A stretch of DNA of 64,000 nt from Alicyclobacillus sp. SP_1 (GTDB taxonomy: Bacteria; Bacillota; Bacilli; Alicyclobacillales; Alicyclobacillaceae). Shown here in pieces: positions 1,448-54,727 of this stretch; position 1 is the stretch's first letter, and every line of letters starts with the position of its first letter. Where the stretch lies: positions 1-64,000 of the forward strand of contig NZ_JAMCCX010000007.1 in assembly GCF_024706985.1 (NCBI RefSeq). Reading direction: 5' to 3'. The translations under genes and the position numbers were made by a program. The notes under the pieces were generated by a model, which was not told the DNA's origin, searched no databases, and saw only the letters and a program-made list of their open reading frames with translations.

Positions 1448-1687
1448 CTACCACGGAAGTCTGGCTGCATAGGTACACTTACGTTTTAGCACGAAAGATA
1501 CGCGTCTACGTGGGTCCTCCTGAAGGATTACATACCAGCCCTCGTCACAGAACTCCATTCTCCCAGGGTAGTATCTGTCTCCCACTCGTAATTCTACGGC
1601 ATAGCCACAGTGTAGAGGACACTCCGTCTCCTCGTTCATGAAATACCATCGTCCGAAAAGTGGGCTGAACTCAAGATGCCCTTTCAT
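1448..1687 (-). CDS. DUF5348-family small protein
   Basis: 79 residues with the pattern of DUF5348: an aromatic-rich start (FSPLFGRWYF), a central pair of cysteines (CPLHCGYAVELRVGDRYYPGR) and a W-Y-V-I-L strand, suggesting a small beta-barrel. The family has no known role. I choose ATG 1687 because it overlaps the stop codon of the upstream ATPase gene as TAATG and has a strong ribosome binding site, GGAGGTG, 7 bases upstream; the longer frame to 1708 lacks this. The coupling implies that it is made together with the TnsC-like ATPase and may be an accessory gene of the same transposon. It is followed by a terminator. Confidence 0.7.
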   Translation of the reverse strand: MKGHLEFSPLFGRWYFMNEETECPLHCGYAVELRVGDRYYPGRMEFCDEGWYVILQEDPRRRVSFVLKRKCTYAARLPW

Positions 1688-2484
1688 TAGCCATTCACCT
1701 CCATCCATGCCCGTTCCACGTGGCTTGTATCGACAACCTGTTCTTCACGGGTTGCTGCGTCCAGTAGCGCACCACGGCACAACGTATTCATCATTCGCGG
1801 ATTCCCCTGACTCGTCTTCGCAATCAGTTTCACTGCATCTGCGGAAAAGATCATTTTCTCTTCGCCAACACAGGCTAACTGTTTTGAGATATAGTCATGA
1901 ACCTCGGATTCAGTGAGTCCAGTCATGTGGTAACGGATTTGAATACGCCCCGACAGAGCAGAAAGAATTCGAAGCTTCATTGTTTCCCGCAGTTCGCTCT
2001 GGCCCACCAACCAAAGGGAAATCGGAGAAAATGAGTCTGCTTTAAAGTTGTTCAGGAACCGAAATTCAGCGAGCATCTGTGGATCTAAGTCTTGAGCCTC
2101 GTCTACGACAATGACAACTTGGCGACCTTTCTGGTAGCTCTCTTCGAGAACCTGGTGAGTGAGTACCTGGTTGTCCACCTGCCGGAATTTTGGTTGAATC
2201 TGTAGGCGTTCTAGGATGACACGGTATAGAGTCTTTGGTGTCAGTCCTGCGTTGGCAATGTACAGAAATCGGTACCGGCTGTCATCCATTCGTTTCATGA
2301 CCGCACGGATTGCTGTTGTTTTACCAGTACCGGTGTCGCCAGTGACCAAAGCAATTTGGCGGTGTTCTGCTGCGTACATGAGCCTCGCACAGAGTTCATT
2401 GTGGTTGTGAAACAACACCAAATCCTCAACAGGGATATCCCGGTCAAACGGTTCTCTTGTAAAACGAAAGAACTCAGTCATCAT
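1687..2484 (-). CDS. TnsC/ExeA-like AAA+ transposition ATPase
   Basis: 265 residues. Walker A is GDTGTGKTT (about residues 49-57) and Walker B is VVIVVDEAQDLD (about 122-133). A sensor/arginine region follows (LSGRIQIRYHMTGLTESEV), then a helical lid. This is the ExeA/TniB/TnsC type that partners a DDE transposase and handles target choice and ATP-dependent activation. The start ATG 2484 overlaps the transposase stop as ATGA and has a GAAGGTGA site upstream; the end overlaps the DUF5348 start. The ATPase looks intact although its transposase partner is broken. Confidence 0.85.
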   Translation of the reverse strand: MMTEFFRFTREPFDRDIPVEDLVLFHNHNELCARLMYAAEHRQIALVTGDTGTGKTTAIRAVMKRMDDSRYRFLYIANAGLTPKTLYRVILERLQIQPKFRQVDNQVLTHQVLEESYQKGRQVVIVVDEAQDLDPQMLAEFRFLNNFKADSFSPISLWLVGQSELRETMKLRILSALSGRIQIRYHMTGLTESEVHDYISKQLACVGEEKMIFSADAVKLIAKTSQGNPRMMNTLCRGALLDAATREEQVVDTSHVERAWMEVNG

Positions 2485-3104
2485 GTCCGTTCACCTTCTT
2501 TGGTCGTGCGCACAAATGACGTCCGGCCTAACCTCTCTTTTCGTTCCTGCTCTCTCCGCGTAGAAATGGTTTCAAGGAAAGAGATGCCCGGTTTTACGGT
2601 TGGTTCCTCCGTCTTTGCATCAGCCTGGGTTACACGTTTGTCGGTGTGACGGCGCAGCTTGAGAGGGACAGCATCTGCATATTGCTTGCCATCCCACCAG
2701 ACTTGGATGTGGGCAAGGTTGTAAGGGTCGTAACGAAGAGAAATGGTCTGACTGACCAAAATCGGTTCAACCTCATAAGTGTTGCCTTGCACCCGAATAC
2801 ATGCTGTTTTGTCCACTTTGGCGGAATACGTCCACTGAAACGCATCCTCAAGAACGACTGGGTCAACGAGGCGCAGGGGGCCATGGGATTCCATGACCAC
2901 AACTGGCCGCTTTTTCAGTGTGCTGTGGACGCGTTGGTGGTACATTTTTTCTAACCACGCAGCAAAGTAGTGGTTCAAATCGTCGAGATTCGAAATTGTC
3001 CCGCGTTGCACACAGAGCTCAGCTTCCGGCCGAAACGAGCGTTCCATATAACCGAAGAATTTTTCTAATTTCCCGCGCATATGTGGAGATTCACATATGC
3101 GCGG
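2481..3104 (-). pseudogene. DDE (Mu/TnsB-like) transposase, 3' fragment
   Basis: Only the C-terminal 200 or so residues remain, starting in the last part of the catalytic core (RGKLEKFFGYMERSF, then NHYFAAWLEKMYHQRVHSTLKKRP). A Mu-type C-terminal beta-barrel domain and a basic tail follow. The N-terminal DNA-binding part and the Asp residues of the DDE triad are missing. The coding likeness stops at about 3075-3104, at a 13-bp palindrome next to the IS91-type element. The matching N-terminal part is not found beyond the element at 5.5 kb, so the break involved a deletion or rearrangement. The fragment keeps tight coupling (ATGA) with the ATPase gene. Confidence 0.8.
3073..3104. repeat. Perfect 13-bp palindrome at the left element boundary
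   Basis: CCGCGCATATGTG (3073-3085) and CACATATGCGCGG (3092-3104) are perfect complements around a 6-base loop GAGATT. The stem sits exactly at the junction between the truncated transposase and the left inverted repeat of the IS91-type element. It may be the hairpin that HUH transposases of this family recognise at an element end. Confidence 0.8.
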
Positions 3105-42869: not shown

Positions 42870-44192
42870 TTATTCCGGGTCTGCCACCGCTTTTAACAGA
42901 GTGGAGAAGGTCGGAAATGAAATATCCACAGCGGACCAGTGTGCGATTTCCACAGAATGGCGAGCTATCAGTGCGGCCACCGCGAAGCTCATTGCGATTC
43001 GATGGTCGTGATAACTGTCGACCCGTCCTCCACCGATCATCCCGTTGCCATGTATGATGAGTCCATCGGGTTGTTCTAATGCGTCAACACCCAATTGCTG
43101 TAATCCATGGACTATGGCCGTAATTCGGTCTGTTTCTTTGACGCGCAGCTCCTGTGCTCCGCGAACTGTCGTCGTGCCATGAGCGGCAGCTGCCGCGACA
43201 GACAAAATTGGAATCTCGTCGACCAATGACGGTATTTCTTCTGCCTCGATGTTGGTGCCGGAAAGGCTAGAAGAACGGACCCGGATGTCACCAATGCGCT
43301 CTCCTGCAATTTCGCGTACATTTTTCAGTTGGATATCGGCGCCCATTCGTTGCAACACGCTTAATGCTCCCGTACGCGTCTCGTTCAATCCAACTCCCAC
43401 GATGGTGAGGTCACTGCCAGGAACAATGGCGGCAGCAACAAGAAGAAACGCTGCTGAGGAGACGTCTCCAGGTACGTGCACGCTGGTTCCCTGGAGAGTC
43501 TGTCCCCCCCGAACGGCAATGTGACGTTCGCAATTCTCCTCGTAGATGTTTACTTTCGCTTGAAATCCATCGAGTAAACGTTCGGTATGGTCGCGGGTTA
43601 AAATGGGCTCAACGACGACCGTATGGCCCGTTTGAGTCGATAAGCCAGCCAGTAGAATGGCAGACTTCACTTGCGCACTTGCGACCGGCAGTCGATAAGT
43701 CATGCTCTCGAGGTCGCTTCGAGTGACCGTGATGGGGGCACATCCATTGCTTCGTTGATGAATGCTTGCGCCCATAGCTGACAAAGGTTGGACCACGCGG
43801 CGCATGGGTCGGCTACGGAGGGATGGATCGCCCGTAAAGACTGCGTATGGTACTCGTCCTGCAATAGCGCCGAGGAATAAACGCATGGTCGTTCCCGAAT
43901 TGCCGCAATCGAGCACATCCGACGGTTCTGTAACCTGTCCGCCACACCCGTCGATGTGCAACACGTCAGGCTCGACTTCAATCTGAGCTCCAAGCAGCTT
44001 GGCGATTGCGATGGACGAACGACAGTCCGCTGCGTCAAGCCAACCTTCTACGGTCGTTCTGCCCTCTGCGAGCATTCCGAGAAGAATCGCGCGGTGTGTG
44101 ATGGACTTGTCGCCAGGTACACGAACCGTACCCGATATCTGACGGGCGCGCGAGACAGAAACAATGTCCGACTCGGAGTGGTGTAAGATCAT
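42870..44192 (-). CDS. aroA: 3-phosphoshikimate 1-carboxyvinyltransferase (EPSP synthase)
   Basis: 440 residues. VPGDKSITHRAILLG, DCGNSGTTMRLFLG, GDPSLRSRPMRR, SAQVKSAILLAG, DVSSAAFLL and the C-terminal RVDSYHDHRIAMS. The GNSGTT and GDPSL-RPM forms resemble the Bacillus-type (class II-like) enzymes. It makes EPSP from shikimate-3-phosphate and PEP. Last gene of the supraoperon, one base after tyrA; in B. subtilis the same gene (aroE) also ends the operon. Confidence 0.95.
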   Translation of the reverse strand: MILHHSESDIVSVSRARQISGTVRVPGDKSITHRAILLGMLAEGRTTVEGWLDAADCRSSIAIAKLLGAQIEVEPDVLHIDGCGGQVTEPSDVLDCGNSGTTMRLFLGAIAGRVPYAVFTGDPSLRSRPMRRVVQPLSAMGASIHQRSNGCAPITVTRSDLESMTYRLPVASAQVKSAILLAGLSTQTGHTVVVEPILTRDHTERLLDGFQAKVNIYEENCERHIAVRGGQTLQGTSVHVPGDVSSAAFLLVAAAIVPGSDLTIVGVGLNETRTGALSVLQRMGADIQLKNVREIAGERIGDIRVRSSSLSGTNIEAEEIPSLVDEIPILSVAAAAAHGTTTVRGAQELRVKETDRITAIVHGLQQLGVDALEQPDGLIIHGNGMIGGGRVDSYHDHRIAMSFAVAALIARHSVEIAHWSAVDISFPTFSTLLKAVADPE

Positions 44193-44193
44193 C

Positions 44194-45093
44194 TCAGTGC
44201 TCTCCTTCCCACTCTTGGCGAGTGTTTTTCGCTTCTTTCAGAAGCTCCACAAGTGCGCCTCTGTCTCTGTTTGCAAGGGCCACCTGAAATCGACCCATCT
44301 GACGCGTAATCGCACACAGGGCATCTGATGTATGTGAAGCATTTTCGAGCAAGGTGTCCGCCCAAAATTCAATAGGAGAGGCGGCCAACCGAGTCAAATC
44401 TCGAAAAGCTGGTCCTGTCACGCTGTGAAGTTTGGCCTGTCCCGAACCACGATATGAGTTCTCTGCCTCTTTGACCATCGACCCGTACATATTCATAAGC
44501 GCCAGAGAGGTCACGTGAATGGAGTGGGAGACCACACTCATGGCACGGTCGTGCTCTTCGGCGGATGGCATCGAAAATAACTCTGCCCCGGTCTCTTCAA
44601 GGAGAGGTCTCCAAGCGTGAATGGCTGGCCACGATTCTATATAGAGAAAATGAGTTCCTTCGTATAGCTTCGGATGTGCTGCCAATGGCCCTTCCTGCGC
44701 CAGCCCGGCCATTGGGTGTGCTGGTAAAAATGTCTCGAACAGACCAAGATGCGATGCAGTTTGGCAGACCGACGTCTTGACCGAACAGATGTCCATCATC
44801 CAAGTGGATATCTTCTGCACGCGTTCTAAAATCTCACAGGCAGCAGTGACAGGGGTGGCTAGCACCGCGTAGTCAAACTTCTGCAAGTTCTGCTCCGTTT
44901 CGGATAGCGCCTCGAGGGATGCGTAGACATCGTCGAAGGCACCACAAGAAAGTAGAGCCTGGCGGTGGCCTTGGCAGGGTTCCACTCCGGTCAATCGTAC
45001 ATGGAGAGTCGTACTTTCTTTCCACCGAAGGGCCAGAGAGGTTCCCATCAAGCCGCAGCCCACCACCAGAATGCGGATGATGTTGCCACTCAT
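44194..45093 (-). CDS. tyrA: Prephenate dehydrogenase
   Basis: 299 residues: an N-terminal Rossmann domain (ILVVGCGLMGTSLALRW) and a C-terminal helical domain with FLPAHPMAGLAQEG and AMSVVSHSIHVTSLALM. It oxidises prephenate to hydroxyphenylpyruvate for tyrosine. It lacks the C-terminal ACT domain of many Bacillus TyrA proteins, so Tyr feedback may be different. Overlaps aroF by ATGA. Confidence 0.93.
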   Translation of the reverse strand: MSGNIIRILVVGCGLMGTSLALRWKESTTLHVRLTGVEPCQGHRQALLSCGAFDDVYASLEALSETEQNLQKFDYAVLATPVTAACEILERVQKISTWMMDICSVKTSVCQTASHLGLFETFLPAHPMAGLAQEGPLAAHPKLYEGTHFLYIESWPAIHAWRPLLEETGAELFSMPSAEEHDRAMSVVSHSIHVTSLALMNMYGSMVKEAENSYRGSGQAKLHSVTGPAFRDLTRLAASPIEFWADTLLENASHTSDALCAITRQMGRFQVALANRDRGALVELLKEAKNTRQEWEGEH

Positions 45094-46124
45094 CGGCTGG
45101 CAATCACTTCCGGATGTATGCTCCGCATGGCGTCGGCCAGCAGTTCTACTTCTTTGACCATCGATTCGAATTTCTCCAATGTCAGTGATTGTGCTCCATC
45201 AGACAGAGCTTCTTCCGGTTTTGGATGCACTTCGACAATGACACCGTGAGCACCCGCCGCAATCGCCGCACGACTCATAGCCGTCACGTAGCGCCATTTG
45301 CCGACGCCATGGGACGGATCGACAATAATTGGCAAGTGAGAAAGGTGCCGAATGACTGGAACGGCATTCAAGTCGAGCGTATTTCGTGTGTATGTCTCAA
45401 ATGTGCGAATACCTCGTTCGCAAAGAATGACATTACGGTTGCCCTCTGCCAAGATGTACTCTGCTGACATCAGCCATTCTTCCATCGTGTTGCTGAAACC
45501 ACGCTTCAACAGCACAGGAGTTTCGGTTTTTCCAACAGCGCGCAGCAAAGGATAGTTTTGCATGTTGCGGGCACCAATTTGCAAAATGTCTACATACGAT
45601 ACCATCAGGTTTACGGTGTCTGGCTCCATCACTTCGCTGACAATGGGCAGACCCGTCTCCTCACGCGCCATGGCCATGTACTTTAAACCTTCTTCACCAA
45701 GCCCTTGAAACGAGTACGGGGACGATCTCGGTTTAAACGCACCACCGCGCAACACTTGGCCGCCTGCTTTCTTGACGCGACGAGCGATGTCGATGATGCC
45801 TTCTTTCGACTCGACTGAGCACGGGCCAGCCATGATGACTGGATTGTCAGTTCCAATTTCCAAATCACCTACGCGAACCACAGTATCTAAGGGATGAAAA
45901 TCACGAGAAGCTAATTTGAATGGATTGCTGACCGTCACTACTTTTTCTACACTAGGCATAGACTCCACCGCCAATTCCCGGACGCGATCTTTAGACCCGA
46001 TTACGCCGATAATAGTCTTTTCTACTCCTGCCGAAACGTGAACACCCAGACCTTTGTTTTCCAAAAGTTTTCGAACAACCTCAATCTCTTCCTCCGTTGC
46101 GCCGGACTTCATCACCACGATCAT
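45090..46124 (-). CDS. aroF: DAHP synthase, type I-beta with N-terminal ferredoxin-like domain
   Basis: 344 residues. The first 75 or so form the ferredoxin-like regulatory domain (MIVVMKSGATEEEIEVV) known from Thermotoga DAHP synthase; the barrel has VIMAGPCSVES, RGGAFKPRSSPYSFQGLG, EVMEP, ILQIGARNMQN, LLKRGFSNTMEEWLMSAEY and DPSHGVGKW. First step of aromatic synthesis. The N-terminal domain usually gives inhibition by Tyr. It sits where B. subtilis has hisC. Confidence 0.95.
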   Translation of the reverse strand: MIVVMKSGATEEEIEVVRKLLENKGLGVHVSAGVEKTIIGVIGSKDRVRELAVESMPSVEKVVTVSNPFKLASRDFHPLDTVVRVGDLEIGTDNPVIMAGPCSVESKEGIIDIARRVKKAGGQVLRGGAFKPRSSPYSFQGLGEEGLKYMAMAREETGLPIVSEVMEPDTVNLMVSYVDILQIGARNMQNYPLLRAVGKTETPVLLKRGFSNTMEEWLMSAEYILAEGNRNVILCERGIRTFETYTRNTLDLNAVPVIRHLSHLPIIVDPSHGVGKWRYVTAMSRAAIAAGAHGVIVEVHPKPEEALSDGAQSLTLEKFESMVKEVELLADAMRSIHPEVIASR

Positions 46125-46127
46125 TCG

Positions 46128-46955
46128 TCATCCCTCTTTCTCCTGTAAGTGAATTTTGTCCCCTACAACGGCCTGCGACAGTTCCTTGCAAAAGTCCTCG
46201 ACCCGTGACACCGTGGAGGCGGATGGGCTCTCGGTGCTCTCTTCCACTCGGCGGACCAATGCGCTGCCGACAATGACTCCATCGGCAAAGGTGGAGACGT
46301 AGCGAGCTTGTTCCACACTAGACACTCCGAACCCAACCGCTACTGGCAAGGAGGTGAATTGTCGTACCGTACGCACGGAATCCTGAACTCGTGCGGACAT
46401 TTGAGCCCGTTCTCCAGTGACCCCTAAAGACGAGACACAGTAGACGAAACCACGTGCTTGCTTAGCAATCGCTTCGATGCGTTCTGCTCCAGAGGTCGGC
46501 GTGACTAAAGGAATCAGTGCCACGTTGGCTGCATCCGCGTAGGCTCTGACCGGAGAACTTTCTTCGTAGGGCAAGTCGGGAACAATCACCCCGTCTGCGC
46601 CAGCCGACGCAGCATCTCGGAAAAATTTGTCGTAGCCGTATTGCAGGAGTGGGTTGACGTACGTAAAGAGAATGAGAGCTTTGTTCGTTTCTTTTCGCAG
46701 AGCGGCTGTTAGTTCAAATGCCCGAGGAAGCGTAAAACCGTGACTCAAACTGCGCAGCGCTGCGGCTTGAATGACCGGGCCGTCCGCAAGCGGATCGGAA
46801 TAAGGGATGCCAATTTCTATCACATCGGCGCCAGCACGGAGCAGGGCGCGAAAGAGTTGCAGAGAGTCCTCGAAGGTCGGGTCTCCTGCTGTTAAAAATG
46901 GAATGAGTGCAGACTGTCCGACGCGGCTCTGAAAAGACTGTTCAATTCTCTCCAT
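46128..46955 (-). CDS. trpA: Tryptophan synthase alpha chain
   Basis: 275 residues from ATG 46955 with GGAGGAGG upstream. [16 protein letters not shown], catalytic Glu and Asp in [28 protein letters not shown], and [27 protein letters not shown]. It releases indole from indole-glycerol phosphate. Overlaps trpB by 14 bases. Confidence 0.95.
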
Positions 46956-48159
46956 GAGGCGCCTCCTCCATGGTAGCAATCTGTTCGACATCTTTGTCGC
47001 CTCGACCGGACAGACAAATGACTACAATCTCGTCTGGCGTCATGTGCGGTGCTTCTTTGACCACTTGAGCTACGGCATGAGCGCTTTCCAAAGCGGGAAT
47101 GATACCCTCCAACTTGGACAGAAGGTAAAAAGCGTCGAGTGCCTCACGGTCCGTCACTGGAACGTAACGGGCGCGGCCCATGTCGTGCAACCAGGCATGT
47201 TCTGGGCCAATCCCTGGATAGTCTAGTCCCGCAGAGATGCTGTGAGCAGGTGTGACCTGACCGAACTCATCCTGGAGCAAGTAGGTTAGCGAGCCATGGA
47301 GAATACCAGGCCGACCGCGATGAATGGAGGCAGCATGTTCTGTCGTGTCTACGCCTCGACCTGCCGCTTCACACGCCACGAGCGCCACTTCCTCATCTTC
47401 CAAGAAGGGGTAGAACATGCCCATCGCATTGCTGCCACCGCCGACGCAGGCATAAATCCGGTCGGGAAGTCGACCTTCTAACTCAAGTATGGCGTCTTTC
47501 GTCTCATCGCCGATGACCCGCTGGAAATCTCGGACAATGCGCGGATACGGGTGTGGCCCCACGACGGACCCGATGATGTAATACGTATCCTCCACGTGTT
47601 CCACCCAATGGCGAATGGCTTCGTTTGTGGCGTCTTTGAGTGTTCGCGTCCCGGACACTGCGGGTACGACTTCGGCTCCCAACATCCGCATACGAAATAC
47701 GTTCAACGCTTGACGGCGCATGTCCTCCTCACCCATGAATACGGTGCAGGAAAGCCCAAATTTCGCAGCCACAGTAGCGGAAGCTACGCCGTGTTGTCCA
47801 GCACCCGTCTCCGCAATAATTCGTTTCTTCCCAGTATGAATAGCGAGCAGTGCCTGTCCAATTGTGTTGTTGATCTTATGCGCACCTGTATGGTTTAAAT
47901 CTTCGCGCTTTAGATAAATTCGTGGACCACCCAGTTCGCGCGTCAATCGGTCCGCATAGTAGAGTCCGGAAGGGCGGCCAGCGAAAGTTTTCAAGTGGTA
48001 GTTGAGTTCCCGCTGAAAGTTTGCGTCACTCATCAGGCGGTCATAGTCGCGTTCTAGTTGATGGAGCGCGGACATCAGGGTTTCTGGAACATAGCGTCCG
48101 CCGTACGCTCCGAATCGTCCATGCTGATCTGGGAAAATCCTATCACTTTGGACCGACAT
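46942..48159 (-). CDS. trpB: Tryptophan synthase beta chain
   Basis: 405 residues from ATG 48159. [29 protein letters not shown] with the PLP Lys, [23 protein letters not shown] and the C-terminal [10 protein letters not shown]. TrpB1 type. It condenses indole with serine. Overlaps trpF by 17 bases and trpA by 14. Confidence 0.96.
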
Positions 48160-48835
48160 CACTTGTCACCGCCTTTATCAGTTGGTCAATTCGCTCATTG
48201 GACTTTCGTCCATTTTTCTCAACACCGGACGAAACGTCAATTCCGATGGGCCGAAAGATGTTCAGTAACTGGTGCGCGTTTTCTGGTCGAATCCCGCCCG
48301 CAACCCAGATATTTGGGCTCGCCGGAGTGGTTTTTATCTGCGGTAGGATGTTCCAATCAAAGACTTCACCGTTCCCGCCCGTCAGAGATGGCTGCAGTTC
48401 GAATTGCCGTGGTGAGGAAGGCATCGCGTCCAGTAAAACAGCCTCCACATGGCCAGAATAGGCAGCAATTTGAGCATTGACATCCTCAACCGACGTAAAG
48501 TTCTTGACAGAAACAGACTTCCACAGTCGCAATCCTTGTTGACGGAGATATGAACAATCCGCTATCGATTCCTTCCCGTGAAGCTGCACGATATCAAAGT
48601 GTGCCATTTCGCGCTCTGCTAAAATAGTCTCCGGCGATTCATCGACATAGACTGCCACGGTTTGTACGGTATCGCGGACATCATCGACCATCGACCTCAT
48701 CGCTTCACGCGAAACGCATCGACGACTGGCAGGGACACGAATGAATCCGATATGGGTTACCGCAGGATGTTCCGTAAAAGACAGGTCGTCCCCCGGTTGT
48801 AAGCCGCAAATCTTCAGTTGAATCGTTGATTTCAT
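48143..48835 (-). CDS. trpF: Phosphoribosylanthranilate isomerase
   Basis: 230 residues. [48 protein letters not shown] and the late [16 protein letters not shown]. Third step of the trp pathway. ATGA overlap with trpC. Confidence 0.93.
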
Positions 48836-49632
48836 GACCTATCGGCCATCCGTAGACGAGGCACACGTAACGTCTCGAGCATTCCCGCTAGTCCTTCTTC
48901 GCCTTGTAACATCAGTGTTTCCCCTACCAGCAATCCTTGCGCTCCGGCATTCGCCATGCGCCGGGCGTCTTCGCGGCTGCGAATTCCACTCTCGGAAATA
49001 ACCGGGATTCCTGTGGGAATCAGCGGCATTAACCGCTCAGTTGTCTCTAGAGAGACCTCAAATGTGTGCAGATTGCGGTGATTGATGCCAAGAACGTCCG
49101 GATTCACAGTCAAGGCAGAGTCTAATTCCTCCTCTTCATGGACTTCAACCAATACATCCAGACCGAGATGCTTCGCATACTCGCTCAATTCCACGAGGCG
49201 ATTGCTTGGCAGGGCTGCCACAATTAACAGAATTGCATCGGCTCCGGCTTCGTACGCCTCGTCAATTTGCACTTCGTCGACAATAAAATCCTTTCGCAAA
49301 ATAGGTAGAGAGACGGCACCGCGAACCGATACCAAATCGTCTATGGAGCCTTGAAAATAGGTTCTATCCGTCAGTACTGACACGGCTGCAGCGCCAGCCT
49401 CAGCGTACTGTGCAGCACGTTCTCTGGGAACGACCTTTAACGCAATGGCACCTTTTGACGGACTCGCTTTCTTCACTTCCGCAATAATTTGCAGATGGTC
49501 ACCTCGAGTTACTGCCTGAGAAAACCGATGTTCCGGCCGTGGAAACGCCCTTGTTTGTGTGACTCGGTGCGATTTTAAGGAGGCGACTTCGGCCTCTTTT
49601 GTCTGCAAAATGCGTTCCAAAAACGTATTCAA
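48832..49632 (-). CDS. trpC: Indole-3-glycerol phosphate synthase
   Basis: 266 residues from TTG 49632, which overlaps the trpD stop as TTGA and has GAGGCGGTGA upstream; the longer frame to 49734 runs inside trpD. IIAEVKKASPSKGAI, VLTDRTYFQGS, LRKDFIVDEVQIDEAYEAGADAILLI, LGINHRNLHTFEVSL and SESGIRSREDA. Fourth step of the pathway. Confidence 0.94.
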   Translation of the reverse strand: MNTFLERILQTKEAEVASLKSHRVTQTRAFPRPEHRFSQAVTRGDHLQIIAEVKKASPSKGAIALKVVPRERAAQYAEAGAAAVSVLTDRTYFQGSIDDLVSVRGAVSLPILRKDFIVDEVQIDEAYEAGADAILLIVAALPSNRLVELSEYAKHLGLDVLVEVHEEEELDSALTVNPDVLGINHRNLHTFEVSLETTERLMPLIPTGIPVISESGIRSREDARRMANAGAQGLLVGETLMLQGEEGLAGMLETLRVPRLRMADRS

Positions 49633-50672
49633 TGACTCACCGCCTCGGAGAAGTCTGTCTGACGGGACGCTCGAACCAATTGCTTGAGTGTCGTTTGTGC
49701 CCGACCGCAATCGATGGTATCGGCAGCTAAACATACTCCCTCGCGAATGGACGATGCGCGACCTCCTACGTAGAGGGCGGCACCTGCATTGAACAGTACA
49801 GCGTCACGAGTAGGTCCGCGCTGCTCTCCGGACAGAATGGCCTCGACGATGGACGCATTTTCCACTGCTGTTCCGCCCGCCAACGTACTGACCGGAGCCG
49901 CGTTCAATCCGACATCGGATGGAGAGATTTCGTAAAGCTGTACAGTTCCATGTTTTAATTCTGCCACATAAGTTGGGCCCGACAAAGAAAATTCGTCCAA
50001 ACCGTCTTGACCGTGCACGACTAGTGCATGCTCGCTCTGCAACTGCCGAAGGGCTTCCGCGACAATCGGTACGAGCCGCTCGGCATATACGCCAAGCACC
50101 TGTCTCTTAACTCCTGCGGGATTTGTCAAGGGACCAAGGACATTAAAAATGGTTCGAAATCCCAGTTGTTTTCTAGGACCCGCCGCATATTTCATGGCTG
50201 GATGGTAATTGCGGGCAAAGAGGAAACAAATTCCGCAAGACTCTAAGCAGGCTCTCGCGGACGCTGGTTGAGAATCCACTTGTACGCCAAGCGCCTCAAG
50301 GACGTCTGCACTGCCACTTTTGCTCGTCGCTGCACGATTACCGTGTTTGGCAATCGGTACACCGGCCGCAGCAGCCACGATAGCCGCAGCCGTCGATATA
50401 TTAAAGGTGTTCAAACCATCTCCACCAGTTCCACATGTGTCGACTGCGCCTAGGTCTGCTTGTACAGTAATACCGTGCGAGCGCATGGCACTTGCGAAGC
50501 CGGCGATTTCGTCCGGTGTCTCGCCGCGCACCGCAATCGCAGCCAATACCCCGGCTGTCTGAACTTCCGACACGCCACCACTCATCAGTTCTAAGGTAAA
50601 GGCTTCAGCGAGTTCGAACGTCAACGTTTTTCCGGACCCTACGGTTTGTAACACTGTTTCAATCGTGCTCAT
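49629..50672 (-). CDS. trpD: Anthranilate phosphoribosyltransferase
   Basis: 347 residues. DTCGTGGDGLNTFNISTAAAIVAAAAGVPIAKHGNRAATSKSGSADVLEALG region and FARNYHPAMKYAAGPRKQLGFRTIFNVLGPLTNPA (both interrupted in quoting the full motif) are the family hallmarks. It attaches PRPP to anthranilate. First structural gene after the attenuator; trpE, which normally precedes it, is absent. Confidence 0.95.
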   Translation of the reverse strand: MSTIETVLQTVGSGKTLTFELAEAFTLELMSGGVSEVQTAGVLAAIAVRGETPDEIAGFASAMRSHGITVQADLGAVDTCGTGGDGLNTFNISTAAAIVAAAAGVPIAKHGNRAATSKSGSADVLEALGVQVDSQPASARACLESCGICFLFARNYHPAMKYAAGPRKQLGFRTIFNVLGPLTNPAGVKRQVLGVYAERLVPIVAEALRQLQSEHALVVHGQDGLDEFSLSGPTYVAELKHGTVQLYEISPSDVGLNAAPVSTLAGGTAVENASIVEAILSGEQRGPTRDAVLFNAGAALYVGGRASSIREGVCLAADTIDCGRAQTTLKQLVRASRQTDFSEAVSH

Positions 50673-50763
50673 AAACTCCGCTCCACTCCTCTCATCTTTT
50701 CTCCGGCCACAACCCGTCGGAGGACTTTGCTGTTAAGGCATGTCAGAAGTCGAACTGAGATAC

Positions 50764-50803
50764 AAAAAAATCCACTAGTTAGGAAGGCAACCTAACGCGT
50801 GGA
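50764..50803 (-). terminator. Leader terminator (attenuator) upstream of trpD
   Basis: On the minus strand TCCAC...GTTAGG, 7-base loop, CCTAAC...GTGGA, then seven T. Two stem blocks (5 and 6 bp) are separated by an internal loop. It ends about 90 bases before trpD. Confidence 0.85.
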
Positions 50804-50814
50804 CGTATCCCAAT

Positions 50815-50866
50815 CGGAAGCTTTGCAACTTCCGCTCTGATGTCAAATGGTTCACCAATACATCAG
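50815..50866 (-). promoter_or_regulatory. Two leader hairpins of the trp operon
   Basis: CTGATGT/ACATCAG (plus-strand 50837-50843 and 50860-50866) and CGGAAG/CTTCCG (50815-50820 and 50829-50834). They lie between the TRAP-like site and the terminator and may shape the antiterminator switch. Confidence 0.6.
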
Positions 50867-50868
50867 GT

Positions 50869-50907
50869 CTCGTCTCCGCTCGCCTCAACTAACTCTCTGC
50901 TCTACTA
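50869..50907 (-). promoter_or_regulatory. TRAP (MtrB) binding site, eight (G/U)AG repeats
   Basis: On the minus strand the triplets are UAG, GAG, GAG, UAG, GAG, GAG, GAG, GAG. They are spaced 2, 2, 3, 2, 2, 2 and 2 bases apart across 39 bases. Regular (G/U)AG triplets with 2-3-base spacers are the known RNA site of the 11-mer TRAP ring. The AGUUAG around the fourth repeat is complementary to CUAACU in the terminator arm. Confidence 0.85.
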
Positions 50908-50976
50908 CACCGGACATCGTGCTACGGACGTCCCGGGCGGTACACGCGAAATTTAGACACTCACTGTTTCTAACGG

Positions 50977-51005
50977 ATCATACGCAAATCCACGGTATTC
51001 GTCAA
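50977..51005 (-). promoter_or_regulatory. Sigma-A promoter of the trp supraoperon
   Basis: On the minus strand TTGACG (51005-51000), 17-base spacer, TATGAT (50982-50977). It lies between aroH and the TRAP-like site, giving a leader of about 300 bases. Confidence 0.8.
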
Positions 51006-51060: not shown

Positions 51061-51435
51061 TCAACCGCTGGATTTCACTAAATCTGGACGTAGATGGACG
51101 GCGTCTCGAAGATAGATGTGGTGGAGCTCAGATTGCTCTTTGTCGGTGTTAATGTGGAGCAACAGGCGAATGCACTTCGGCTGGCTTCCGTCAATGTTAA
51201 GTTCCGTCGCGCACATGAGCGGTACCCACTGCCAACCTGGGCGAGAGCGAACAGCTTTGGCTGGAAATGCCGCCGTTAAATCCGGCGTCATCGTAAACAA
51301 AATGCTGGCAACGTCGTCCACATCCAGTTCATTTTCGCGAATAATCGTGTCCATCAGCTCTCTGGTTGCAAAGGAAATGGCTGATTCCGTATTTTCTTCC
51401 ACCGATGTCGCCCCTCGAAGACCACGAACTTTCAT
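51061..51435 (-). CDS. aroH: Chorismate mutase, AroH type
   Basis: 124 residues from ATG 51435 with GGGAG upstream; the frame extends back into aroB. KVRGLRGATSVEENTESAI, ENELDVDDVASILFTMTPDLTAAFPA, CATELNIDGSQPKCIRLLLHIN and HIYLRDAVHLRPDL, the trimeric AroH fold as in B. subtilis. It makes prephenate from chorismate, feeding tyrA. Third gene after aroC and aroB. Confidence 0.95.
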   Translation of the reverse strand: MKVRGLRGATSVEENTESAISFATRELMDTIIRENELDVDDVASILFTMTPDLTAAFPAKAVRSRPGWQWVPLMCATELNIDGSQPKCIRLLLHINTDKEQSELHHIYLRDAVHLRPDLVKSSG

Positions 51436-51472
51436 TCTCTCTGCTCCCTCTCTCTGATATGAACGAGGCCAC

Positions 51473-52558
51473 TCAAGCATCGTTCATGTCCGTCCACGCG
51501 CGTTTGACGAGCGCCTCAGGGACGTCATGAAATATTTCCGCTCTGCCGATGCCCGTGGGTAACGCGAATGTCCAACCGCTGGTCGTGTTCTTCTTGTCCA
51601 TCTCCAGTTTGCTCCGCAAATCTTCATACGTTACGGACTTTGCCCGAATTGGCAACCCATGTCGTGTCAAGACATCCTGAATGGCATCTCTGTCTGCCGG
51701 ACTGAGCACGCCCATCAGCACCGCGAGATGAGCTTCAACGGCGAGCCCAATCGCAACCGCCTCTCCGTGAGACCATCGATAATGACTCCAAGATTCAACC
51801 GCATGACCAAGATTGTGGCCAATGTTGAGCAGCATCCTCGGTCCCTGTTCGTGTTCGTCCTCTGAGACCACCTTCACCTTGACGCGCATCGCCCGTGTCA
51901 GCAAATCCTCCGTCCGCTCTGGTCCAGGGTATTCTGAATACGGCACATAACCCAATTCTTGGAACAGAGATTCGTCTCCAAGAATCGCATGCTTGATGAC
52001 TTCCGCCATTCCGGATTTCCATTCCCGGACTGGTAACGTTGCGAGTGTCTCGGGGTCCATAAGGATGGCCCAGGGAGCGTAAAAAGAGCCGACTAAATTT
52101 TTCCCCACCGCTAAATTGACGCCAACTTTTCCACCAATTGCACTATCATGCGCCAACAGAGTGGTCGGAACTTGAACGTATCGAATTCCTCGCAGGTACG
52201 TGGAGGCGACAAAGCCAGCCAAGTCCCCCACGACTCCTCCGCCCACAGCCAATATCACCGTATTTCTGCGAACTCTGCGAGTGGCCAATTGACTGTAGAG
52301 AAATTCCGCCATGGCTAGCGACTTGGAGGCTTCTCCAGAGGGTACCGAGATGGTGTCCACGAATAAAGACGCAGCCTCGAGCGACTTAACCATTCGCTGA
52401 ACGTGGCCCGCTCTGTCGACATGGTCGTCGGTAATCACGAGAAACATCGGCGAGGACAGACCCTCCGACTGTAAAATGTCTGCGGTTCTCTGCAACAGCC
52501 CCTGTTCCACCAACACAGGATACGTTCTGAGTTGGGACTCCACCCATAAGCGAGTCAT
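51473..52558 (-). CDS. aroB: 3-dehydroquinate synthase
   Basis: 361 residues. VPSGEASKSL, AVGGGVVGDLAGFVASTYLRGI, PTTLLAHDSAIGGKVGVNL, GMAEVIKHAILGD, and LNIGHNLGHAVE then WSHGEAVAIGL with the metal His residues. Second step of the shikimate pathway. Overlaps aroC by 4 bases. Confidence 0.95.
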   Translation of the reverse strand: MTRLWVESQLRTYPVLVEQGLLQRTADILQSEGLSSPMFLVITDDHVDRAGHVQRMVKSLEAASLFVDTISVPSGEASKSLAMAEFLYSQLATRRVRRNTVILAVGGGVVGDLAGFVASTYLRGIRYVQVPTTLLAHDSAIGGKVGVNLAVGKNLVGSFYAPWAILMDPETLATLPVREWKSGMAEVIKHAILGDESLFQELGYVPYSEYPGPERTEDLLTRAMRVKVKVVSEDEHEQGPRMLLNIGHNLGHAVESWSHYRWSHGEAVAIGLAVEAHLAVLMGVLSPADRDAIQDVLTRHGLPIRAKSVTYEDLRSKLEMDKKNTTSGWTFALPTGIGRAEIFHDVPEALVKRAWTDMNDA

Positions 52559-53712
52559 CGCTTTGCCACCTGGTTCATATAAGACTGATAGTTTGTTCTA
52601 ATTTCCGCCATGGAATCGCCGCCAAATTTCTCTAAAAATGCCTCGGCAATGACCCATGCCACCACATTTTCACCGACGACCGAAGCGGCAGGCACGGCAC
52701 AGTGATCTGATCTCTCGATGCTGGCTAACTGAACTTCCTTCGTGACCATGTCCACACTCGGCAGCGGATTGTACAAAGTTGAGATGGGCTTCATCGCGAC
52801 TCGCACTAGAATGTCTTCGCCATTGCTCATGCCGCCCTCAATTCCGCCAGCTCCATTCGTCGGTCGCGAATATTTCCCGTGCTCATATAGAATGGCATCG
52901 TGAACCTCCGACCCAAATTTCCGGGCCGCTTCAAATCCATCGCCTATTTCCACGCCTTTCATAGCTTGAACACTCATCAACGCACCCGCCAAACGACCAT
53001 CCAGCTTGCGATCCGGTTGTACATGGGACCCGAGCCCCACAGGACATCCGCGCACCACAACGGTGTACACACCGCCGACGGTGTCTCCGCGCTCTTTGGC
53101 TTCGTCTACTTTTGCAATCATTTGCGCCTCTGCTACAGCATCGGCCGTACGCATCACAGAGGTTGCTGTAGCTTCGGTCAGTTTGCTCCAATCGCTCGTG
53201 TCCACGGTCGCCTGTACTCCACCGATTTCCGTCACAAACGCAGTCACGTCAATAGAAAAGGCGGCGAGCAGTTGGCGGGCGAGGGCTCCGATAGCAACCA
53301 TCGTAGCTGTATTTCGCGCGCTCGCACGTTCGAGCACGTTGCGCAGATCGACGTGTTCGTATTTTAGTCCGCCCGCTAAATCTGCGTGTCCAGGGCGAGG
53401 GCGATTCACCTCGCGGAGATTTTCCGGAGCAGCATCCCACACTGCCATCTTCTCGGTCCAATTTTTAAAGTCACGATTGGCGACATGCATCGTAATGGGA
53501 GAACCTAGCGTGTACCCAAACCGGACGCCGCTGGTAATTTCTACGGTGTCCGTTTCAATTTGCATGCGCCGCCCCCGACCATAACCGAGTTGCCGACGCC
53601 GCAACTGTTCATCGATAGCCGGCTTGCTGAGTTGCAGTCCGCTCGGCATTCCATCGACTATGACGGTCAATTCTGGACCATGACTTTCTCCAGCAGACAA
53701 ATAACGCAGCAT
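52555..53712 (-). CDS. aroC: Chorismate synthase
   Basis: 385 residues from ATG 53712 with GGAGGGG upstream. AGESHGPELTVIVDGMPSGL, QLGYGRGRRMQIE, GSPITM, RPRPGHADLAG, RASARNTATMVAIGALAR and GGMSNGEDI. It makes chorismate from EPSP. It starts 19 bases after the last M42 gene, so it is probably in that transcript. Confidence 0.95.
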   Translation of the reverse strand: MLRYLSAGESHGPELTVIVDGMPSGLQLSKPAIDEQLRRRQLGYGRGRRMQIETDTVEITSGVRFGYTLGSPITMHVANRDFKNWTEKMAVWDAAPENLREVNRPRPGHADLAGGLKYEHVDLRNVLERASARNTATMVAIGALARQLLAAFSIDVTAFVTEIGGVQATVDTSDWSKLTEATATSVMRTADAVAEAQMIAKVDEAKERGDTVGGVYTVVVRGCPVGLGSHVQPDRKLDGRLAGALMSVQAMKGVEIGDGFEAARKFGSEVHDAILYEHGKYSRPTNGAGGIEGGMSNGEDILVRVAMKPISTLYNPLPSVDMVTKEVQLASIERSDHCAVPAASVVGENVVAWVIAEAFLEKFGGDSMAEIRTNYQSYMNQVAKR

Positions 53713-53731
53713 CGGCAACCCCTCCGTTGTC

Positions 53732-54727
53732 TTATTGATACGCCTTGGCGGCAGCAATGACCAAGTCTTTGACAGCTTGCACATCGTTGATGTTGACGAC
53801 CGTGGAAATGCCGCCGACGTAACGCGCTGGATAGGAAATGGAGCCTACCAGCACTCCGGATTGCGACAAATGATAAGCCCCCGAATCCGACTTTCCATTT
53901 GGCCAAACCTCGTACTGGACGTTTATCTTCATTTCATCCGCAGCCTTTCGCAACAGGTCTTTCATCGCGAGCGGAATGACAATCGTTCCATCGAGAATTT
54001 TAATGGCGGGCCCTTGGCCAAGCGATAGTTCCATACGAGTTGCTTTCGGCATATCGCCTGCAGGAGCAGCATCAATCACAAAGACGACGTCCGGTTCAAG
54101 CGCGAACGCAGCAGTTTTTGCGCCGCGGGCCCCCACCGTAGACTGGGCCGCCAATACGAGCGAGACACGCCGACCTTCACCGGCCAACGCGCGAAATGCT
54201 TCGATGGCTGCAGCACAGCCAGCGCGATTGTCCAGCGCGCGTCCCGCAAGGCAATCGCCTTCGAGTTCAACGACCGGTTCCAGGGCAACGCCGCACGTGC
54301 CAATTGGAGTAAGGGCATTCGCCTCGGCGGCAGTTTGACAACCGAGATCGACATAAAGGTGGTCGTAGGTCACATTTTCCGCACGCACTTCCGATTCCAC
54401 ACCAACAATACCGATAGAGCCGCCCGTAAACTGCACATGGCGGCCAATCAAACGGCCAGGCTGCAGGTCGCCGACGGACAGAATGCGCAGATAGCCGTTG
54501 TCCTCGACGTGAATCACCATGACTCCCGGCTCGTCGATGTGCGCCGAGATAGCTACGTGCGGTCCATGACCTGCTTTCTTGACGATGCCATTTCCGAGCA
54601 CGTCGATGTGCGTCTCATCGGCGATGTCTTCCAAGGACCGAAGAAGGTCTGGCAATGCGTTGCGTTCATATCCGGAGGGGATGATTTGACTGGCGAGTTG
54701 TCGAATAAATTCTTTCATGCGTTCCAT
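53732..54727 (-). CDS. M42 aminopeptidase paralogue with degenerate active site
   Basis: 331 residues from ATG 54727 with AGGAAGG upstream. The M42 fold is clear: VAISAHIDEPGVMVIHVEDNG, GRALDNRAGCAAAIEAF, and SDSGAYHLSQSGV. However, the catalytic pair that reads QEE-GLRGA or QEE-GVRGA in the two neighbours is AQSTVGARGA here. The last metal His (RYMH or RYIH in the neighbours) is Gly in ARYVGGIS. Probably not a working peptidase; perhaps a structural subunit of a mixed complex. Confidence 0.85.
   Translation of the reverse strand: MERMKEFIRQLASQIIPSGYERNALPDLLRSLEDIADETHIDVLGNGIVKKAGHGPHVAISAHIDEPGVMVIHVEDNGYLRILSVGDLQPGRLIGRHVQFTGGSIGIVGVESEVRAENVTYDHLYVDLGCQTAAEANALTPIGTCGVALEPVVELEGDCLAGRALDNRAGCAAAIEAFRALAGEGRRVSLVLAAQSTVGARGAKTAAFALEPDVVFVIDAAPAGDMPKATRMELSLGQGPAIKILDGTIVIPLAMKDLLRKAADEMKINVQYEVWPNGKSDSGAYHLSQSGVLVGSISYPARYVGGISTVVNINDVQAVKDLVIAAAKAYQ

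Follow-up and report, generated by a model that had tools for sequence, protein, structure and literature searches.

TRAP, an RNA-binding ring protein that senses tryptophan, is a textbook attenuation protein, and most of what is known of it comes from a few Bacillus species. In the supra-operon of B. subtilis, the trp leader is placed after aroH. The B. subtilis trp leader has a named 5′ stem-loop, and the U tract of its attenuator is interrupted (PMC3913778). TRAP binds 9–11 repeats; it can block ribosome-binding sites directly, for which one overlapping repeat is enough, and it also alters structures that hide ribosome-binding sites and favours terminators (PMC4347634). The triplets of B. 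subtilis trpG and trpP overlap the ribosome-binding site (PMC4347634, citing Yang 1995, Du 1997, and Yakhnin 2004).

The stretch of DNA analysed here (the window, 64,000 nt from Alicyclobacillus sp. SP_1) contains a leader that is similar to that of the B. subtilis trpEDCFBA operon. It follows aroH and comprises a promoter, a 5′ stem-loop in the same place, a run of (G/U)AG triplets with 2–3-base spacers, and an attenuator hairpin with a U tract, and mtrB is present in the genome. The two leaders differ in that eight triplets are found here and eleven in B. subtilis, two extra hairpins separate the TRAP site from the terminator here, and the U7 tract is canonical here, whereas that of B. subtilis is interrupted (PMC3913778). 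With trpE located elsewhere, the operon begins with trpD. In addition, a GAG cluster lies directly on the Shine–Dalgarno sequence of the first gene, where B. subtilis uses a distant sequestering hairpin. The overlap of triplets with the ribosome-binding site is shared with B. subtilis trpG and trpP, but the target here is trpD, fewer triplets are contiguous, and an attenuator is present on the same transcript. Judging from the sequence, we consider it very probable that this is a TRAP-controlled leader with two contact points on one transcript, the attenuator and the trpD ribosome-binding site, and that it is paralleled by a TRAP-type leader of trpG-trpE.

Architecture of the trpD leader and its probable distal TRAP site

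The leader is located on the minus strand between aroH and trpD, and the genes aroC, aroB, and aroH lie upstream on the same strand (51061–53784). The sigma-70-type promoter TTGACG-17-TATGAT (50977–51005; −35 TTGACG at 51005–51000, −10 TATGAT at 50982–50977) was the best promoter-like match of the region, which held three such matches, compared with an average of 0.2 in shuffled sequences. Transcription would start at approximately 50969–50971. The predicted fold showed a 5′ stem-loop, CCGGGACGUC...GAUGUCCGG (50910–50936), directly 5′ of the first triplet, which the preliminary description of this DNA had overlooked. The distal TRAP site (50869–50907) comprises eight triplets, UAG 50907, GAG 50902, GAG 50897, UAG 50891, and GAG 50886, 50881, 50876, and 50871, with spacers of 2, 2, 3, 2, 2, 2, and 2 nt. 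Two predicted hairpins, CUGAUGU...ACAUCAG (50837–50866) and CGGAAGUU-GCAA-AGCUUCCG (50815–50834), separate this site from the attenuator/terminator hairpin (50764–50803; stem 50803–50771, U7 50770–50764, approximately −15 kcal/mol). The first gene of the operon, trpD (49629–50672, ATG at 50672), scored 418.7 bits against the TIGR01245 cut-off of 199, and it is followed by trpC, trpF, trpB, trpA, aroF (DAHP synthase), tyrA, and aroA (42870–49734, minus strand). The genes from trpD to aroA are closely spaced, with overlaps or gaps of a few bases. The preliminary description had claimed this promoter, the eight triplets with 2–3-base spacers, the two hairpins, the seven-T terminator, and trpD, together with the order trpDCFBA-aroF-tyrA-aroA behind the leader, and each was found in its place.

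The distal triplets are arranged in a non-random way. The longest triplet chain in the 333-nt leader is 8, and its mean in 5000 dinucleotide-preserving shuffles was 2.1; a chain of at least 6 occurred in none of the shuffles and a chain of 5 in 13. The pattern KAG-N2/3-KAG-N2-KAG-N2-KAG-N2/3-KAG had a single match in the 3.4 Mb genome, which is the distal site, and its reversed control had zero matches in the whole genome. The eight contiguous distal triplets are below the about 9–11 described for TRAP sites, and the proximal ones number 4–5. Because the contiguous distal triplets of other family members number 4 to 7, we regard the eight as variation in number. Chance triplets, or a leader of another type (T-box, peptide attenuator, or riboswitch), are hardly credible as the explanation. 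No supporting point was found for either, the Rfam search of the window returned one tRNA only, with no family at the gathering score in the trpD leader, and mtrB is present in the genome. The shuffles, the uniqueness in the genome, and the conservation over 59 species also argue against them, and conservation has already refuted them as a general account. The earlier interpretation, a TRAP-type attenuator with the layout of the B. subtilis trp leader and eight repeats instead of eleven, is supported by the presence of mtrB and by the conservation of the 2–3-base-spaced arrangement across the family and the sister family; the lack of either would have spoken against it.

The TRAP gene mtrB is located on the same contig (C7:85422–85619), 21 kb past the end of the window (PF02081, E 1.2e-37). 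It is the only mtrB of the genome, and its product scored 134.9 bits against the cut-off of 117 of the NCBIfam equivalog PRK13251. The gene that a TRAP-type leader calls for is present and full-length. The protein can be aligned with solved TRAPs along 64 residues and keeps a 35-letter motif, which we take to hold the tryptophan- and RNA-contact residues of the B. subtilis protein. Among the genomes compared, mtrB was found in 38 of 41 in the family and 54 of 59 in the order. The mtrB of the relative G002 (L235) has an in-frame stop near the middle, perhaps because it is a pseudogene or because the sequence contains an error; the trpD and trpG leaders of this genome still have triplets. The frame of mtrB is intact in its neighbour G003, with P in the motif GMTRGP.

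An anti-TRAP homologue was detected in 5 of the 41 family genomes, and none was found in the genome of the window. The homologue of the relative G008 (L237 1208–1500, minus strand) lies behind a T-box-like sequence (GGUGGCACCACGG) and is followed by a methyltransferase-like gene with six (G/U)AG triplets at its start. This arrangement, with TRAP-like triplets at the start of the gene that follows anti-TRAP, is reminiscent of B. subtilis rtpA-ycbK, from which the genome of the window differs in its lack of a detected anti-TRAP homologue.

Triplets on the trpD ribosome-binding site

The Shine–Dalgarno region of trpD reads GAUGAGAGGAGUGGAGCGGAGUUU-AUG. Four GAG with 2-nt spacers were found at 50693–50676, and a fifth lies seven bases upstream. 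Together they form the proximal TRAP-like site GAG-N7-GAG-N2-GAG-N2-GAG-N2-GAG (50676–50703, minus strand), which overlaps the Shine–Dalgarno sequence as expected of a TRAP translational repression site of the trpG/trpP type. This cluster is an important element that the preliminary description missed. The pattern GAG-N2-GAG-N2/3-GAG-N2-GAG had three matches in the genome, two of which fall on the distal and the proximal site of the trpD leader. The reversed control of this pattern is uninformative because it reads the same backwards, and the reversed five-triplet control was relied on instead. The third match (C16:8510) lies approximately 75 nt before the gene of a Spo0F-like response regulator and was set aside; by our own arithmetic, it is within the approximately one chance match per genome.

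Chains of at least 3 triplets were present in the last 75 nt before trpD in 36 of 39 family leaders. Of 236 control genes with a Shine–Dalgarno sequence, approximately 10% had such a chain at the start (Mann–Whitney p about 1.6e-23), even though this set still includes trpG and loci fetched for GAG runs. The best of the 40 control genes of the window has 2 triplets, compared with 4 for trpD, and the aroC of the window is without a GAG cluster. The cluster was found in none of the 17 trpD leaders of the sister family (Fisher p 1.2e-11). Therefore, location on a Shine–Dalgarno sequence alone does not explain the cluster.

The leader could act by attenuation only, in which case the GAG cluster at the trpD start would be a purine-rich Shine–Dalgarno sequence without TRAP function. 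GGAG is natural to such sequences, the window has just 4–5 proximal triplets, a small number given that TRAP is described as binding 9–11 (PMC4347634), and the sister family manages without the cluster. However, so few control genes reach three triplets, in the 236-gene set and in the window, that we hold this to be rather unlikely. Moreover, several family members without a terminator retain the start-site cluster alone, for example G028 with nine contiguous triplets. The proximal purine run could instead serve mainly as one strand of a hairpin that sequesters the Shine–Dalgarno sequence, with an indirect effect of TRAP as in the B. subtilis trpE leader. The proximal stretch is indeed already paired in the predicted fold with 50753–50745 (the CUCAGUUCGACUUCU region), and the Shine–Dalgarno core pairs with 50750–50745 at P 0.96–0.99. 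This explanation is nevertheless quite improbable: the predicted pairing is the same with or without TRAP on the distal site, so that there is no switch as modelled, and the recurrence of 2-base-spaced triplets across the family is left unexplained. Direct contact of TRAP with the trpD ribosome-binding site remains the reading that we prefer.

Folding of the leader and proposed mechanism

The arms and loop of the terminator can alternatively pair with 50900–50866 of the distal TRAP site, which would form an antiterminator. The pairing of 50900–50866 with 50812–50772 reached −26.6 kcal/mol, and 54 of 2000 shuffles were as good. The part that most resembles the B. subtilis antiterminator joins GCGGAGACG, which comprises the last triplets, to CGUCCACGC of the 5′ arm of the terminator. 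A 6-bp antiterminator between AGUUAG and CUAACU had been suggested before; this pairing exists, but its length was understated, since it is one end of the longer interrupted pairing. In the sister family, the corresponding pairing of CGUGAGCG with CGUUCACG was stronger than every local control segment in 11 of 14 leaders, and stronger than every spacer-shuffled site in 9 of 14. Within the family, the terminator arm AUCCGCAGG often pairs with GCGGA of the site, in moderate excess over controls. As modelled, the case for an antiterminator formed with the 3′ part of the TRAP site is convincing for the sister family and modest for the leader of the window.

Equilibrium folding depended on the transcription start. 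For a start at 50969–50971, the probability of the terminator was 0.89–0.93 in the free leader and 0.99 with the TRAP site masked. For a start at 50978, it rose from 0.18 to 0.98. Folding with and without the repeats, which had been proposed as a check, therefore gave a large shift for 50978 but no clean switch for the likelier start. Masking the site had no consistent effect over the family (trpD means 0.85 free and 0.86 bound), and we therefore did not use equilibrium folding as evidence of switching. Since the terminator is dominant without TRAP at the likelier start, any switch would need to be kinetic, or TRAP would need to act more directly on termination. In B. subtilis, TRAP can terminate transcription without the attenuator hairpin (PMC3913778).

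We propose that tryptophan-activated TRAP would bind the nascent leader at its eight distal triplets and keep the 3′ part of the distal site from pairing with the attenuator region. The terminator hairpin would then form, and transcription would halt before trpD. On read-through transcripts, TRAP would occupy the GAG cluster of the Shine–Dalgarno sequence and block the initiation of trpD translation, as at B. subtilis trpG and trpP. At low tryptophan, TRAP would be off the leader, and trpDCFBA-aroF-tyrA-aroA would be transcribed and translated. The unlinked trpG-trpE would be regulated alongside through a TRAP-type leader of its own. One TRAP ring might even bridge both sites, with eight subunits on the distal triplets and the rest on the Shine–Dalgarno GAGs of trpD approximately 170 nt downstream; the leader would be looped, and transcripts that escape the attenuator would be silenced at translation. 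We regard this bridging as doubtful.

Leader designs and the divided trp regulon

The leaders of the sister family (f2) have (G/U)AG triplets followed by a terminator, with no start-site cluster, in 17 of 17 cases. In the family outside genus g2, a hairpin with a U tract was found in 20 of 24 leaders and a start-site cluster in 22 of 24, and 18 had both. In genus g2 and in G028 (g7), the terminator is absent between the site and the gene, and the triplets extend onto the Shine–Dalgarno sequence. A short hairpin interrupts the triplet run in many g2 species, and the run of G028 is contiguous. Hairpins with a U tract were counted in some g2 species at −153 to −180, ahead of the TRAP site; these are probably 5′ stem-loops and not attenuators. 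The comparison shows three apparent designs in the order: a putative attenuator only, an attenuator with a ribosome-site cluster as in the window, and a ribosome-site cluster only. The gene trpD is immediately 3′ of the leader throughout the order, so the absence of trpE is not peculiar to the genome of the window.

The trpE gene is located behind trpG on another contig (C28, L046; trpG 960–1517, trpE 1530–3074, leader approximately 780–960). It is missing from its usual place, as the preliminary description had noted, but it probably belongs to the regulon, behind a second TRAP-type leader that it shares with trpG. In this leader, a TTGACG promoter is followed by approximately nine (G/U)AG triplets, spaced less regularly, and by a weak hairpin whose tail is U-rich. 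We read 30 trpG-trpE leaders of the family, and all were (G/U)AG-rich: the maximum number of triplets per 60 nt averaged 7.1, compared with 3.4 after base shuffling. Many have a recurrent CCACAGC...GCUGUGG-U6 terminator, and others have triplets on the trpG Shine–Dalgarno sequence. These triplet-rich leaders make it probable that the pathway is under TRAP control in both units, trpG-trpE and trpDCFBA-aro.

In the genome of the window (contigs C28 and C17), we detected just a single TrpE/PabB-type component I, together with one MenF-like protein; many relatives have a second, PabB-like gene. TrpE may therefore also serve folate synthesis.

Further GAG runs were observed in relatives. Two species of genus g5 (L126 of G023 and the matching place in G022) have a GAG run at the start of aroC (chorismate synthase), a possible new TRAP target. 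GAG clusters also lie just 5′ of APC-type amino acid permease genes (L119 and L120 in g5, L111 in G003), and the site of L111 has matching sites in four other g2 species; these permeases are possibly TRAP-controlled transporters. At L114 (G018), a GAG cluster with TGAGCAAGAATGAGGCGAGTTGAGTTGAG precedes an ilvD-like dihydroxy-acid dehydratase gene.

Each of these modes of TRAP action is already known. As far as the open-access literature shows, the new points are trpD as a target, the presence of both an attenuator and a direct start-site cluster in a single transcript, the series of designs across the order, and a split trp regulon with a TRAP-type leader for each unit; some of these points may already appear in older comparative studies. 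A whole bacterial order would use TRAP on a trp regulon that is divided between trpG-trpE and trpDCFBA-aro. With the natural series of designs among relatives, it can be tested directly how small a number of triplets is enough, and how transcriptional attenuation and translational repression, both exerted by one protein, substitute for or strengthen one another.
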